A DNA stretch of 62,497 nucleotides from Methylotenera sp. (GTDB lineage Bacteria > Pseudomonadota > Gammaproteobacteria > Burkholderiales > Methylophilaceae): positions 1 to 62,497 of the forward strand of contig JAKFVB010000003.1 of NCBI GenBank assembly GCA_021732405.1, read 5' to 3'. A program made the translations under genes and the position numbers. Positions 19,010 through 23,716 of this stretch are shown piece after piece. Numbering within the stretch: position 1 is the stretch's first letter; the number at the start of each line of letters is the position of its first letter. The notes under the pieces were generated by a model that was not told the origin of the DNA, made no database searches, and was given only the letters and a program-made list of their open reading frames with translations.

Positions 19010-20881
19010 TTATAGTGAGAATACTGTTAATGCACCGCCGCCAGGAGCAGCGTTGTATTTGGTTAATTCTTTGTAACCACCAGCAGCACCAAGTGCGTCT
19101 GTGTCGTTAGTTAAACCAAGGTTCATCGCAACGCCAGCCCAACCGCCGATACCTGAGAATGTACCAACGTATTGTTTACCTTTGTTACCGTATGTGAATG
19201 CATTACCAATCACGCCAGAACCCACTTGGAATTTCCAAAGTTCTTTACCAGTTTTGGCATCAACCGCTTTTAACCAGCGATCTAAAGTACCATAGAATAC
19301 CAAATCAGTTGACGTAGTTAATACACCACCCCAAGCAGAGAATTTCTCTTTGTTGTACCAAACTTTTTTGTTGGTCATTGGGTTGTAAGCGCCGAAGCCA
19401 CCCATTACACCGTCAGGACCAGCAAACATAGTTAAAGTAGCACCAACCCATGGTTGACCAGCAACATATTTAGACTCAACTGGCTCGTATGTCATACAAA
19501 CATGATTAAGTGGTGAATACATTAAACCAGTTTTTGGTGAGTAAGCAGCTGGTTGTTGATCTTTAGTACCCAATGCAGCTGGGCAGATGCCTTTTGCATT
19601 GTAGTCTTGGTGCGTAGAATAACGGCCGTCTTTAGCTGGAACACCTGTTTCTAAATCCACTTTAGACGCCCAGTTAACGAATGGATGTACTTTCTCAGCA
19701 GCAATCAAACTGCCTGTGTGTGCGTTCCATGTGTAAGCAAAACCGTTACGGTCATGGTGCCAAGCGTATGTTTTGCCACCTTTGTCAAATAGAATCACGT
19801 CATTCACACCATCGTAATCCCACTCATCATGTGGCGTCATTTGCATGCCCCATTTAGCAATACCAGTATCTAAATCACGTGCAAATACTGTCATTGACCA
19901 TTTGTTGTCACCTGGACGTACATCTGGGTTCCAAACTGATGGGTTACCTGTTCCGTAATAAACCAAGTTTGTGCGTGCATCATACGGCCACCAGCCCCAT
20001 GTAGAGCCGCCACCATGTTGCCAGCCATCTTTAACGGCTTGTGGTTTTAACCATGTACGTGTGCCTAATTCTTTTTCGCCACCTTTGATTTGTGATGCTG
20101 GCAAAGCAGTAAATGAACCGCCTTGTTTGTTACCGCCGTTTACATCAGCATATACAGATAGTGCATTGTATTTAGGATTAGCAGCATTAAAATCATTACC
20201 GATTAATACTTCAGCATCTGGGCCTGTTGAGTAAGCTTTCCATGCCAATGAACCGTCTTTAATATAATAAGCAGCTAAGAAACAACGCACGCCGAATTCT
20301 GCACCTGAACAACCTGTTAATACTTTGTCCTTAATTACATGTGCTGCATTGGTGTTAGTTGCGCCTACTTTAGGGTCTGTGTTTCTAACATCCCAGATTT
20401 TTGCGCCCGTTTTAGCGTCAAGGGCCACCAACATACCGTCATTTTGTTGCAAGAATACTTTGCCGTCGCCGTAGCCTAAACCACGTGAAACGTTATCGCA
20501 ACATAAAACAGCTTGTACTGATGGATCTTGTTTTGGGAAATATGACCAAACGATTTTTTGATTGTCGTTTAAATCTAGCGCATACACGTTATTTGGAAAA
20601 GCTGTGTGCAGATACATCATATTACCGACAATCACTGGTGAACCTTCGTGACCACGGTTTACACCAGTAGCGAATGTCCATGCAGCTTTAAGGTTTTTTA
20701 CATTACCTTTGTTGATTTGTGATAATGCACTGTAACCTTGATTATTGTGCTGTCCACGCGGATGCAACCAGTTATTGGCATCTTTCATGGCTAGTTCTTG
20801 ATCTGCTGCGGCAAATGCGATTGTTGGCATAGCCAATGCAACGCTTGCGGCGATACCCATTACACGTTTTTTAGTAAACAT
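19010..20881 (-). CDS. xoxF: Lanthanide-dependent methanol dehydrogenase XoxF
   Basis: 623 residues from the ATG at 20881. An in-frame ATG six bases upstream (20887) sits only two bases from the GGAG ribosome-binding site, while 20881 has proper spacing. A signal peptide ends around the AFAAADQ stretch. The eight-bladed PQQ propeller carries the vicinal disulfide LCCDN (residues 127-128), metal/PQQ ligands Glu195 and Asn313, and Asp355-Tyr-Asp357. The second aspartate of that DYD is the lanthanide-coordinating residue that separates XoxF from calcium-type MxaF. It oxidises methanol in the periplasm, passing electrons to cytochrome c. No xoxG or xoxJ lies nearby. As a Methylophilaceae protein it is probably of the XoxF4 type (inference). 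Confidence 0.96.
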   Translation of the reverse strand: MFTKKRVMGIAASVALAMPTIAFAAADQELAMKDANNWLHPRGQHNNQGYSALSQINKGNVKNLKAAWTFATGVNRGHEGSPVIVGNMMYLHTAFPNNVYALDLNDNQKIVWSYFPKQDPSVQAVLCCDNVSRGLGYGDGKVFLQQNDGMLVALDAKTGAKIWDVRNTDPKVGATNTNAAHVIKDKVLTGCSGAEFGVRCFLAAYYIKDGSLAWKAYSTGPDAEVLIGNDFNAANPKYNALSVYADVNGGNKQGGSFTALPASQIKGGEKELGTRTWLKPQAVKDGWQHGGGSTWGWWPYDARTNLVYYGTGNPSVWNPDVRPGDNKWSMTVFARDLDTGIAKWGMQMTPHDEWDYDGVNDVILFDKGGKTYAWHHDRNGFAYTWNAHTGSLIAAEKVHPFVNWASKVDLETGVPAKDGRYSTHQDYNAKGICPAALGTKDQQPAAYSPKTGLMYSPLNHVCMTYEPVESKYVAGQPWVGATLTMFAGPDGVMGGFGAYNPMTNKKVWYNKEKFSAWGGVLTTSTDLVFYGTLDRWLKAVDAKTGKELWKFQVGSGVIGNAFTYGNKGKQYVGTFSGIGGWAGVAMNLGLTNDTDALGAAGGYKELTKYNAAPGGGALTVFSL

Positions 20882-21212
20882 CGTCATATCTCCAAAATAT
20901 TGATAAAAAATAACTCAACTCCTCATTCAATTGAATTACATCATTTGGCTTAGATAAAACTGGTACTAGGATGGCCAGAATCTTAAAACTTTATTTAAAA
21001 AATTAGATTAAATAAATTGTTTCAATTTGTTAAGCGAATGTTACTGTAACGAAAATTTCAGCATCTTAAGCCATCCTGATTGTTTAATTTTAAGAGGTCC
21101 AGTTTATAGCTTTGTACACCAGTATCGTTTTTTGTTAATATCCTTTTTGTGGATTTAGCCTAGATTTCCATTTAGTAAAAATTATTTTATTTGCTGAATG
21201 TTAAGGAATGCA
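20882..21212. promoter_or_regulatory. Divergent control region between xoxF and the MocR-type gene
   Basis: About 330 AT-rich bases with no gene. AGGATGGC (20968-20975) recurs inverted as GCCATCCT (21070-21077), and each copy has ATCTTAA beside it (20980-20986 and 21063-21069), so the two sites look like matching operator arms about 95 bases apart. On the xoxF strand a TTAACA box (complement of 21028-21033) is followed 15-17 bases on by A/T-rich -10-like sequence. The GGAG ribosome-binding site of xoxF is at 20889-20892. Which protein binds is unknown; the adjacent MocR regulator is the obvious candidate. Confidence 0.45.
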
Positions 21213-22721
21213 ATGCTAAGGCCATGGAATCTTAATATGGAGGTTGTGCGCGGTGCTGCCACACCTATTCATATCCAAATCGCAGAAACGATTATTGATG
21301 AAATTCAGTTAGGTCGTTTTCTACCTGGCAGTGCGCTACCAGGTACACGCGAACTCTCTAATCAGCTCAATATTAATCGTAAAACTGTCGTTCAAGCCTA
21401 CGATGAATTAATTTCTAAAGGTTGGCTTACAACGGAAAGTAAGCGTGGTACTTTTGTTTCATCGCGCGTGTTAATGGTGAACCATCAAGCAAAAACGATT
21501 AAACCTGAATCTATTCAAGTATCGCCAAAAAAACACCGCATGCCTGATGCGATGATGACGAGTCTTGATGATTTACAGCAGATTAATACTTCAGCAACAT
21601 CCGATTACCTATCATTGAGTAACGATGACCCAGATGCAAGACTCATACCCTATCAGATTTTTGCAAGATCAATGCGGCATGCAGTAACCACCTTAACACG
21701 CAATAATAAATTGTATTACTCTGACTCAAAAGGTAGTGTTTTTTTGCGGCAAGCCATATTAAATATGCTTAATATGGAGGGGGGACTGAGCGCAGAATTA
21801 GAAAATATTTGTATATTGCGTGGTAGCCAGATGGGCCTTTTTTTGGCAGCACGTCTGCTTATAGAGGCAGATGACTGTATCGTGGTTGAACAATTAAGCA
21901 ACCCTATAGCACGTGAAACTTTTAAAAACTGTGGTGCCAATTTACTTTACGTTGCACATGATCAAGATGGTATTCATTTAGAAACGCTAGAGAAACTTTG
22001 CATCAACCACCCCGTGCGCGCAATTTATGTAACGCCTCATCATCAAATTCCGACTGGGGTAGTCATGCCGATGGATAATCGAAAAGGACTATTAAAACTT
22101 GCTGAACGTTACAATTTTGCGATTATTGAAGATGCTAATGGTTGTGAATTTAATTATGAAAAGGCAGCGCTTCGGTCATTGATGTGTTTGGATAAATCAG
22201 GACGCGTTATTTACCTTGGTTCATTTTCTAAAATTTTAGCGCCAGGTTTTAGAGTTGGCTATATGGTCGCACCAAAATCTGTCATCAAGCATTCAGAAAG
22301 TGATATTACGATTATTGACCGCCAAGGCAATACACTGGTTGAACTTGCTGTTGCAGAGCTTTTGCAATCAGGCGAGATTAAACGACATATCACTAAGTCA
22401 ATTAAAGTGTATCTTGCCCGCAAGATACATTTAACACATTTAATACAGTCAGAATTGTCTGAGTTTTGTCATATAATACCATCAAGTAGCGGCTTAAGTT
22501 TGTGGGTAAATTTAGCATCAGATATTCAAACTGATTTACTGCTAAAAGACGCAAAAAAACAAAAACTTAAGTTAAATTGCATCAATCACTATTCCGACCG
22601 ACATGACGCTGCTGGTTTACGCCTAGGTTTTGCACACCTAAATCTAGATGAAATCACCTTGGCTGTTCAAAGCTTAAAAAAAGCATTGATGTGCCAATCT
22701 AAAATTTATTTACGCGCATAA
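21213..22721 (+). CDS. MocR-type GntR transcriptional regulator with aminotransferase-like domain
   Basis: 502 residues from the ATG at 21213, favoured over ATG 21198 because AAGGA lies five bases before it. Residues 15-85 form a GntR winged helix (PIHIQIAETIIDEIQLGRF, PGTRELSNQLNINRKTVVQA); the rest is a fold type I aminotransferase-like domain that normally binds pyridoxal-phosphate. GSFSKILAPGFRVGYM holds the lysine. In the usual IIEDDYDSEF block the sequence is IIEDANGCEF: the aspartate to the ring nitrogen stays, but the tyrosine that contacts the ring hydroxyl is asparagine, so cofactor binding may be altered. It is divergent from xoxF and may control it. Confidence 0.85.
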   Translation: MLRPWNLNMEVVRGAATPIHIQIAETIIDEIQLGRFLPGSALPGTRELSNQLNINRKTVVQAYDELISKGWLTTESKRGTFVSSRVLMVNHQAKTIKPESIQVSPKKHRMPDAMMTSLDDLQQINTSATSDYLSLSNDDPDARLIPYQIFARSMRHAVTTLTRNNKLYYSDSKGSVFLRQAILNMLNMEGGLSAELENICILRGSQMGLFLAARLLIEADDCIVVEQLSNPIARETFKNCGANLLYVAHDQDGIHLETLEKLCINHPVRAIYVTPHHQIPTGVVMPMDNRKGLLKLAERYNFAIIEDANGCEFNYEKAALRSLMCLDKSGRVIYLGSFSKILAPGFRVGYMVAPKSVIKHSESDITIIDRQGNTLVELAVAELLQSGEIKRHITKSIKVYLARKIHLTHLIQSELSEFCHIIPSSSGLSLWVNLASDIQTDLLLKDAKKQKLKLNCINHYSDRHDAAGLRLGFAHLNLDEITLAVQSLKKALMCQSKIYLRA

Positions 22722-22840
22722 CTCAAAAAAATGGTGGTTGTGAACAGCCAGTGGTGGTTATTTTAATACTATCAATTCAACAATTTTCAATTAATTAAAT
22801 AAAAAATCATATTAATCAATTACTTAATAAAATTAATATC

Positions 22841-22867
22841 TTGGTACGATAGTTGCTGAAATATAAC
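22841..22867 (+). promoter_or_regulatory. Candidate promoter of the small RNA
   Basis: TTGGTA (22841-22846) and TATAAC (22862-22867), 15 bases apart, slightly shorter than the ideal 17. A start 5-7 bases after the -10 would fall on the GGG at 22871-22873, exactly where the folded RNA begins. Confidence 0.45.
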
Positions 22868-22870
22868 GAT

Positions 22871-22990
22871 GGGAGAGCTATCACTAGGACCTTTATCGTT
22901 ACACAATTTGCAAAAGTTGTATACGATAAAGGGGTAGACTCCCAACTTTATACTGTAAACAAAAAGGCGCTAATTGCGCCTTTTTGTTTA
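22871..22990 (+). ncRNA. Candidate structured small RNA with its own terminator
   Basis: About 115 bases fold into one long arm. UGGGAG (22870-22875) pairs with CUCCCA (22939-22944); CUA (22878-22880) with UAG (22935-22937); CCUUUAUCGU (22890-22899) with ACGAUAAAGG (22923-22932). The tip (22901-22922) is a further mostly paired helix closed by a GCAA tetraloop, a GNRA loop on this strand only, which argues for the plus strand. An asymmetric internal loop, UCACUAGGA against GG, looks like a conserved-site candidate. A tail of about 16 bases leads to the terminator. I do not recognise it as any known riboswitch, 6S or tmRNA. It lies between two genes of the methanol/lanthanide module. Confidence 0.55.
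22961..22986 (+). terminator. Perfect Rho-independent terminator, possibly bidirectional
   Basis: AAAAAGGCGC (22961-22970) and GCGCCTTTTT (22976-22985) pair perfectly around TAATT. It would end the small RNA on the plus strand and the PepSY gene on the minus strand. Confidence 0.88.
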
Positions 22991-23020
22991 ATCTGTTTTA
23001 AAGCTTACATCGGCGCAAAA

Positions 23021-23548
23021 TTATTCTTGGCCAATTTGGTAGACTTCATAGCTCTTCTCAACAATTTTACCTGTTGTTGCATCTACTTCTACTTTAATTT
23101 CTTCTTTATCTGCTTCTAAAATATCAAACTCGTATGATGCTTTACCATCTGGTTCTAGCTCATACTCTGTCTCCACAACAGTACCAGGATGTGCAGCTAA
23201 CGCTGTTGCTTTCGCGTCTGCCTCAGACACTTTAGCTAAAGCTTTAAATTTTGAGTCATCTGCTTTTACTTCTTGCTCAACTTCAGTAATTTTACCTGTT
23301 TTTGCATCGCACTCGATATCCCATGCAGTTCCATCAGCAGATTCAATATCAAACTCGTAAGTCGGTTTTTTATTTTCTGATTTGGTTTCTAATTTGACGA
23401 TTTTACCTTCATGTACGCTTAAAGCTGCCTTTACGCACTTACCTAAACTATCTGCCTTTGTCGGTTTAATGGTTTGATGATCTGCAAATGCTGTATTTGC
23501 TAAAAATACCGTTGCTACCAAAGCAGCACCAATTGTTAAACGAATCAT
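23021..23548 (-). CDS. Double-PepSY periplasmic protein, lanpepsy-like (putative lanthanide binder)
   Basis: 175 residues. A signal peptide (1-22, ending NTAFA) precedes two PepSY repeats: [16 protein letters not shown] ... [14 protein letters not shown] and [16 protein letters not shown] ... [14 protein letters not shown]. The mature part is very acidic, about 35 Asp/Glu in 153 residues. Size, double PepSY layout, acidity and host family match lanpepsy, the lanthanide-binding protein described from Methylobacillus flagellatus (from memory). Location near xoxF strengthens the link. Binding of metal is inferred, not shown; other PepSY proteins are protease inhibitors or have unknown roles. A GGAG ribosome-binding site lies eight bases before the ATG. 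Confidence 0.78.
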
Positions 23549-23716
23549 GATTATCTCCAGAATAAATAAATATAAATTTTAAAAACTACTTCTTAGTTTG
23601 AGCAAGAATTGTACCTAAAAATTTATAGGTCATTGATTAATTACATCATTGTTACAATTTTGGTTTTATACAACCAACTTCTGGCTGAATAAAACCAAAA
23701 GTATAAGTTAACCGCG

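Follow-up and report, generated by a model that had tools for sequence, protein, structure and literature searches.

The analysed stretch of DNA (hereafter the window) comprises 62,497 bp of contig JAKFVB010000003.1 of Methylotenera sp. (GCA_021732405.1). It carries genes encoding (i) a PQQ-dependent dehydrogenase of the methanol/ethanol family (inferred to be xoxF; positions 19010-20887, minus strand), recognized by matches to Pfam and TIGR03075 and by comparison with its paralogues, (ii) a MocR-type regulator with GntR and aminotransferase domains (21198-22721, plus strand), identified by Pfam and family-model matches, and (iii) a protein with two PepSY domains (23021-23548, minus strand), identified by Pfam and by a match to PDB entry 9vy3 ('Propeptide, PepSY amd peptidase M4'; E 5.5e-51). 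We take entry 9vy3 to be lanpepsy, the lanthanide-binding protein of Methylobacillus flagellatus. Lanpepsy is described in the available part of PMC12482762. The name xoxF rests on the TIGR03075 match and on the accessible portion of PMC6028718, and the encoded methanol dehydrogenase is probably rare-earth dependent. The xoxF and mocR genes, and in relatives also the lanpepsy-like PepSY gene, are proposed below as targets of a small RNA.

The putative RNA gene is located between mocR and the PepSY gene. Its transcript (22868-22994, plus strand), predicted from sequence, fold, homologues and compensatory pairs, would extend from a +1 position set by sigma-54 spacing to just past a terminator. 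The long imperfect hairpin and the terminator after it, noted in the preliminary description, were confirmed, the terminator being a strong one: the segment 22841-22990, which includes the terminator, has a predicted folding energy of -55.5 kcal/mol, compared with -28.6 (sd 3.5) for shuffled sequences (z -7.8), and none of 200 shuffles folded as well. The GCAA apical loop described earlier is also present in the minimum-energy fold. The asymmetric element reported as a UCACUAGGA internal loop exists, but it is in fact a one-sided bulge of 7 nt, ACUAGGA (22883-22889, plus strand), which is the proposed pairing site. Similarly, the terminator is where it was placed, but its stem, previously given as a perfect 10 bp, is formed by 15 bp (22956-22990, plus strand). 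The conserved structured core (22871-22945, plus strand) matches covariance model R1 with 88.6 bits (E 8.6e-23), the window being part of the training set of this model. Methylophilus-type copies, such as L036 and L047, also conserve the sequence that joins the hairpin to the terminator (ACTTGCATATTGATCT), a possible second contact site.

The earlier remark that the RNA matches no familiar riboswitch or housekeeping RNA agrees with our search of Rfam 15, in which the window and seven homologous loci gave no match at the gathering score. The best sub-threshold match of the window was Thr_leader (28.7 bits, with a gathering threshold of 55), and several sub-threshold matches fall on the terminator. 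A reading as riboswitch or as cis-acting leader was rejected, since in the window a terminator closes the RNA and the gene beyond it (PepSY) is transcribed towards it. The idea of a CsrA sponge was dropped as well; two GGA sites are recognizable by inspection.

The RNA had been assigned a -35/-10 promoter. This assignment was rejected, since a sigma-70 scan of positions 22300-23500 detected no site (shuffle mean 3.9). A sigma-54 (-24/-12) element, TTGGTACG-ATAG-TTGC (22841-22856, plus strand), was instead identified by sequence and score. Its general form is TTGGTACG-N4-TTGC, and the GG and GC at sigma-54 spacing fit the sigma-54 consensus. For another bacterium, this consensus is given as YGGCR-N6-TTGC in the available part of PMC12403871. 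Counting from the -12 C at 22856 places +1 at 22868, three bases before GGGAG, so that the transcript begins nearly, not exactly, at the first base of the closing stem, as had been suggested for a different promoter. Further upstream there is a putative activator (enhancer) site (22736-22769), composed of GGTTGTGAACAGCC at 22736-22749 and a degenerate second copy starting at approximately 22756.

BLAST searches of 61 genomes revealed two good homologues besides the window, both syntenic. Most matches to the whole stretch shared the terminator alone, which was therefore left out of later searches. A 21-base pattern, allowing up to three mismatches, was found in 27 of 187 genomes of the family, one match (L033, in G019) being spurious; it matches the core, no promoter or fold was seen, and it was dropped. 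The covariance search over the Methylophilaceae that had been recommended as a check was performed with a model built from 19 sequences (genome cutoff E ≤0.1). It located the RNA in 35 of the 187 genomes and in 3 of 24 genera: g1, the genus of the window (3 of 15 genomes), g20 (18 of 22) and g7 (14 of 52). An order-wide search of 399 genomes, which scored 12 candidates per genome under strict filters and may thus miss relatives outside the family, returned family members only and one weak match (G450, E 0.07). A 22-base gapped pattern retrieved 14 records from the genome collection, 13 assigned to Methylophilaceae or its genera, including Methylotenera versatilis 7 and Methylophilus methylotrophus DSM 46235, and one to 'Betaproteobacteria bacterium'.

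The compensatory changes predicted for the stems were observed: among 43 copies (40 distinct), 18 of the 27 base pairs are altered on both sides. The number of cells changed on both sides (165) exceeds that in shuffles (60.9) and in slid controls (≤35), and 89.5% of cells pair; the alignment is a model-fitted one, which favours the model. The bulge motif ACTAGGAC is constant in all 43 copies, the search model itself having contained it. Given the homologues in three genera, their synteny and the compensatory changes, the prediction of a structured small RNA with no Rfam match at the gathering score is well supported.

The synteny was evaluated for 34 first-copy loci, counted without the second copies, without L090 and L103 (a duplicate) and without genomes G109 and G115. 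The mocR gene lies directly upstream of the RNA in 30 of them; at the remaining four (L066, L101, L104 and L107) it is missing on the available stretch. A lanpepsy-like PepSY gene, convergent and directly downstream, is present in 23 of the 34. Of 24 loci inspected over a longer stretch, 20 include the xoxF gene, and where these were compared its product is 83-92% identical to that of the window. The MocR proteins of the RNA loci diverge fast (24-68% identity to that of the window), the adjacent XoxF being at least 83% identical.

A sigma-54 score of at least 18/22 was obtained within 45 nt upstream of 32 of the 43 RNA copies (background, 189 of 20,000 stretches), and these sites end 13-16 nt before the model start. 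The 11 copies below the cutoff comprise nine second copies of g20, L107 (score 17.5) and L066, which lies at a contig end. In the 260 nt preceding each of the 43 copies, a GG[TC]T-N6-A[AG]CC site occurs in 33 cases, and two or more in 13, as raw counts. The site usually lies 75-150 nt upstream of the promoter and has GGTTG-N4-CAACC at its centre. Second or third RNA copies are found in several Methylophilus-type genomes (L091-L094, L096-L100); they retain the same CUAGGAC bulge and have no sigma-54 promoter. The nine g20 second copies lack the upstream site as well, a GGGAA-N4-TCCC-like inverted repeat precedes several second copies, and no common function was detected among the g20 neighbours tested (PilZ, GreA/B, LysR, SLOG/TIR, ArsR-like and others).

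A detailed inspection of the gene leaders revealed possible sites of interaction with the bulge. In the window, a predicted hairpin in the xoxF leader (CTGGCCATCCTAGTACCAG; 20960-20978, minus strand) carries a loop with 7 nt of complementarity to the bulge, and one in the mocR leader (GTGGATTTAGCCTAGATTTCCA; 21149-21170, plus strand) has 5 nt (CCUAG). The match is thus modest in this genome, and the leader of its PepSY gene contains no CCTAG and no match. In the 200-nt leaders of RNA-bearing genomes, CCTAG occurs upstream of xoxF in 19 of 20 cases, of mocR in 27 of 27 and of the PepSY gene in 17 of 23 (the exceptions being G000, which is the genome of the window, G007, G012, G107, G174 and G176). 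Of the 20 xoxF leaders, 19 contain CCTAGT, 63-107 nt before the start codon and within a CTGG...CCAG-like hairpin; G012 carries the RNA and has an xoxF leader without CCTAGT. The background expectation for CCTAG is 0.06-0.08 per 200 nt. Its summed fraction over the three genes is the highest of all 1024 5-mers, and by lowest fraction it ranks second, behind TTTTT. The 6-mer CCTAGT ranks 243rd, because the PepSY leaders carry CCTAGC. On the opposite strand, scored as CTAGG outside CCTAGG, the motif was found in none of 20 xoxF, one of 27 mocR and none of 23 PepSY leaders, i.e. 1/70 in total compared with 63/70 for CCTAG, and this strand bias fits pairing at the RNA level.

The possible stem around CCTAG reaches, on average, the 84th (xoxF), 92nd (mocR) and 88th (PepSY) percentile within its own leader. 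The mean unpaired probability of the motif is 0.64, 0.67 and 0.83, respectively, compared with 0.51, 0.49 and 0.37 for the segments. The flanking hairpin arms vary between and within the three genes, with pairing retained in most. Predicted duplexes of the 13-nt core with eight leaders have energies of -8.6 to -15.1 kcal/mol, two of the eight pairing away from CCTAG. Across the leaders, CCUAG is situated 39-123 nt ahead of the start codon, away from the ribosome site, and repression is therefore not obvious.

CCTAG is also present in three of six thyA upstream stretches. All 38 TCCTAGT sites of G000 were inspected; apart from that of xoxF, one lies 59 nt before a Polyketide_cyc2 gene, following a -10-like box, another 63 nt before a TonB receptor gene (L141, L144), and a further one 11 nt before an ORF nested in another ORF. 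CCTAGG overlaps the likely ribosome site of TonB receptor genes at L250, L251 and L253 (e.g. TCCTAGGGAAAA before ATG), which are possible further targets.

The distribution of these elements was compared with that of the RNA. A sequence model of the xoxF element, built from 19 sequences, gave matches with E ≤0.0021 in 28 of the 187 genomes, all of them RNA-bearing and 10 outside the training set. The next matches had E values of 0.0057 or weaker and include those at the locus in the RNA-bearing genomes G113 (0.0102) and G116 (0.133); the other RNA-bearing genomes with no strong match are G012, G152, G167, G169 and G174. Besides three RNA-linked loci, 27 further xoxF-type loci (20 genomes) were inspected, and CCTAGT was found upstream of two, L204 (G118) and L212 (G154); both are RNA-less and have the motif outside a CTGG/CCAG hairpin. 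The xoxF copies L219, L220 and L221, which are 85-90% identical and reside in RNA-bearing genomes, are not preceded by CCTAGT.

A search for related MocR proteins in 56 genomes (54 RNA-less, plus G167 and G169) yielded 14 loci in 13 genomes, with MocR identities of 42-61% at RNA-less loci (the most distant, 42%, at L296). None of the 13 readable mocR leaders at loci without the RNA contains CCTAG, which differs from the RNA loci with a Fisher probability of 8e-11, relatedness being ignored. L297 was not counted, since the beginning of its gene lies beyond the contig; L290, which belongs to the RNA-bearing G169 and is an additional mocR copy there, has a leader of only 145 nt, L286 has CCTAG on the opposite strand, and the absence of the RNA at L287 and L295 is based on the covariance search, because both end right after mocR. 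Two loci of the genus of the window (L284 and L285) keep the mocR-PepSY-thyA synteny and the terminator and have no RNA. The mocR-leader element therefore follows the RNA and not MocR.

The GGTTG-N4-CAACC motif was also identified at other genes. Upstream of the PepSY gene of the window there is a sigma-54-like promoter, TAGGTACAATTCTTGC (23602-23618, minus strand; score 18.5/22), preceded by tandem activator-like sites, GGTTTTATACAACC and GGCTGAATAAAACC (23662-23696), located at 23662-23675 (1 mismatch) and 23683-23696; in g1, this activator motif belongs to both the RNA gene and the PepSY gene. Such sites are still recognizable by eye before the PepSY gene in the RNA-less G006. Seven genomes contain 2-9 copies of the motif each (backward control, 0-3), and a search of the window's own genome with 2 mismatches gave 13 sites (control, 7), so that single sites may be due to chance.

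In G000, two copies of the motif, 22 bp apart, are followed by a sigma-54-like site (seen by eye) and an operon encoding a TonB receptor and a response regulator of 477 residues, in which Pfam recognizes a sigma-54 activator domain and a DNA-binding domain of the Fis type. This genome encodes seven strong sigma-54 activators among 10 matches. Operons of G012, G114 and G126 resemble that of G000 in gene order, length and start sequence, the Pfam assignment having been made for G000. In G114 and G012 the motif is also found ahead of an ECF sigma factor-FecR-TonB receptor gene set, and in G126 ahead of a FecR gene. In G192, one site is found before a TonB receptor gene and another before a MoxR-DUF58-x-VWA-x-VWA operon, a gene order which we take to be that of mxaRSACKL.

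The preliminary description had guessed at a link to methanol or lanthanide control. This guess gains support from the predicted CCUAG hairpins in the xoxF, mocR and PepSY leaders, as well as from the upstream motif common to TonB receptor genes and to the mxaRSACKL-like operon of one relative. Comparison of the genomes shows the predicted fold, the putative promoter, the shared upstream motif and a strand-specific CCUAG, mostly in predicted hairpins. We consider it likely that the gene specifies a sigma-54-driven, trans-acting small RNA whose bulge would pair with the leader loops and which would spare metal, in a RyhB-like manner, when lanthanides are scarce. In this model an RNA of approximately 125 nt would be transcribed from the sigma-54 promoter, most likely under the control of a sigma-54 response regulator bound at GGTTG-N4-CAACC sites. 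The exposed ACUAGGA bulge may then make loop-loop contacts with the leader hairpins and alter the translation or stability of the xoxF, mocR and PepSY messages. When lanthanide is scarce, the uptake genes and the RNA would be switched on, and the RNA would, in the most likely sense, hold down the lanthanide-dependent dehydrogenase and its partners. The more specific scheme, which we regard as quite possible without being probable, is that one sigma-54 response regulator senses lanthanide scarcity and turns on TonB/FecIR uptake, the assembly genes of the calcium dehydrogenase and the RNA, the bulge of which kisses the CCUAG hairpins and silences xoxF, mocR and the gene of the lanthanide-binding PepSY protein.

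The same RNA and pairing could have the opposite effect, the contact protecting or activating the three messages, so that the RNA would be a co-activator and not a sparing repressor. The position of the leader hairpins well upstream of the start codons, that of the mocR hairpin near the transcript start suggested by -10-like sequences seen by eye, and the activator motif common to the RNA and the g1 PepSY gene all suit such a role. However, the presence of this motif at TonB uptake genes and at the mxaRSACKL-like operon of G192 suits lanthanide scarcity, when xoxF should be low, and we find co-activation rather unlikely. Far less probable, in our opinion, is that CCTAG/CTAGG constitutes a DNA operator of MocR or another regulator near where xoxF, mocR and the RNA gene start, in which case binding to the DNA would account for the conserved bulge. 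A MocR protein is encoded in the locus, the sites would occupy positions usual for repressors, and two RNA-less xoxF leaders contain CCTAGT, but the strand control (CTAGG in 1/70 leaders, CCTAG in 63/70) makes this explanation less likely, the arms around CCTAG differ while pairing is mostly kept, and at RNA-less loci with a MocR of 42-61% identity the mocR leader is devoid of CCTAG (0/13).

Two explanations dispense with a regulatory RNA altogether. In the window, a 22-codon ORF with its ATG at 22869 overlaps the hairpin, and the transcript might be a small mRNA for a 22-residue peptide. Yet this start codon would lie a single nucleotide beyond +1 and has no ribosome site, the other two genera do not preserve the frame (by inspection it is closed or startless in the g20 and g7 copies), and the observed changes preserve base pairs; this possibility is very slight. 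Slighter still, and practically negligible, is a chance hairpin next to a 3' terminator shared by mocR and the PepSY gene. Convergent genes would be expected to have a terminator between them, and most of the first BLAST matches were terminator-only, whereas the covarying homologues and the conserved promoter extend over three genera, and the syntenic L284 and L285 keep the terminator without the RNA.

The proposed trans-acting RNA can be compared with several known systems. Qrr, GlmY/GlmZ and NrsZ are sigma-54-dependent small RNAs. As with these, the gene described here has a -24/-12 promoter preceded by a putative activator site, and ends in an intrinsic terminator; the promoter lies at the right distance (the nine second copies excepted), and a conserved, apparently exposed site is accompanied by complementary sites in the putative target leaders. 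Unlike them, it would pair through a bulge in one long hairpin, its proposed targets are the messages of a methanol-dehydrogenase locus, and it has no Rfam match at the gathering score. RyhB and PrrF are metal-sparing small RNAs, RyhB acting in the case of iron. The RNA is perhaps a RyhB-like metal-sparing RNA, and the proposed logic is the same: when the metal is scarce, its uptake is raised and the enzymes using it are lowered by the RNA. The differences would be another metal (probably), a sigma-54 activator in place of Fur repression and loop-loop pairing with CCUAG hairpins, and in our case the sign of the effect is inferred.

Short loop-loop complementarity with mRNA leaders is likewise a property of Staphylococcus aureus RNAIII, whose contact covers the ribosome site in several cases given in the available part of PMC4691137; the present leader hairpins are placed upstream of that site. 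The regulators of the lanthanide switch named in the accessible text of PMC11845868 (MxbDM, MxcQE, MxaY/MxaB and PedR2/S2) are proteins. The proposed system resembles these in that control of lanthanide and calcium dehydrogenases involves two-component systems, and differs in combining a sigma-54 response regulator with an RNA. Two other small RNAs of a methanotroph are not tied to xoxF in the available part of PMC12403871. Among the matches listed, the titles and abstract openings of the open-access literature revealed no regulatory RNA acting on xoxF or on the lanthanide switch. The present RNA, previously unlisted, suggests an RNA layer in the management of rare-earth metals. With its candidate targets and host strains named, this conserved RNA makes the question of how bacteria change over between lanthanide and calcium methanol dehydrogenases directly testable. 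If the proposal is true, the lanthanide switch has an RNA arm, and metal-sparing RNA control extends to rare earths.

Two additional features were noted by eye. An xoxF paralogue with 72-75% identity (L216 and L222-L228, in g7 and G118) is preceded by a TGGCAY-type sigma-54-like promoter and, upstream of it, by a TGTCACGTGACA / TTGACACAG-like motif, which would represent a different activator site. At L249 (G192:C6, minus strand), a GC-rich hairpin followed by a T-run is located just downstream of the sigma-54 site at approximately 6,053, before the mxaRSACKL-like operon. This hairpin would end the transcript soon after its sigma-54 start, and may therefore mark a second small RNA or an attenuator.
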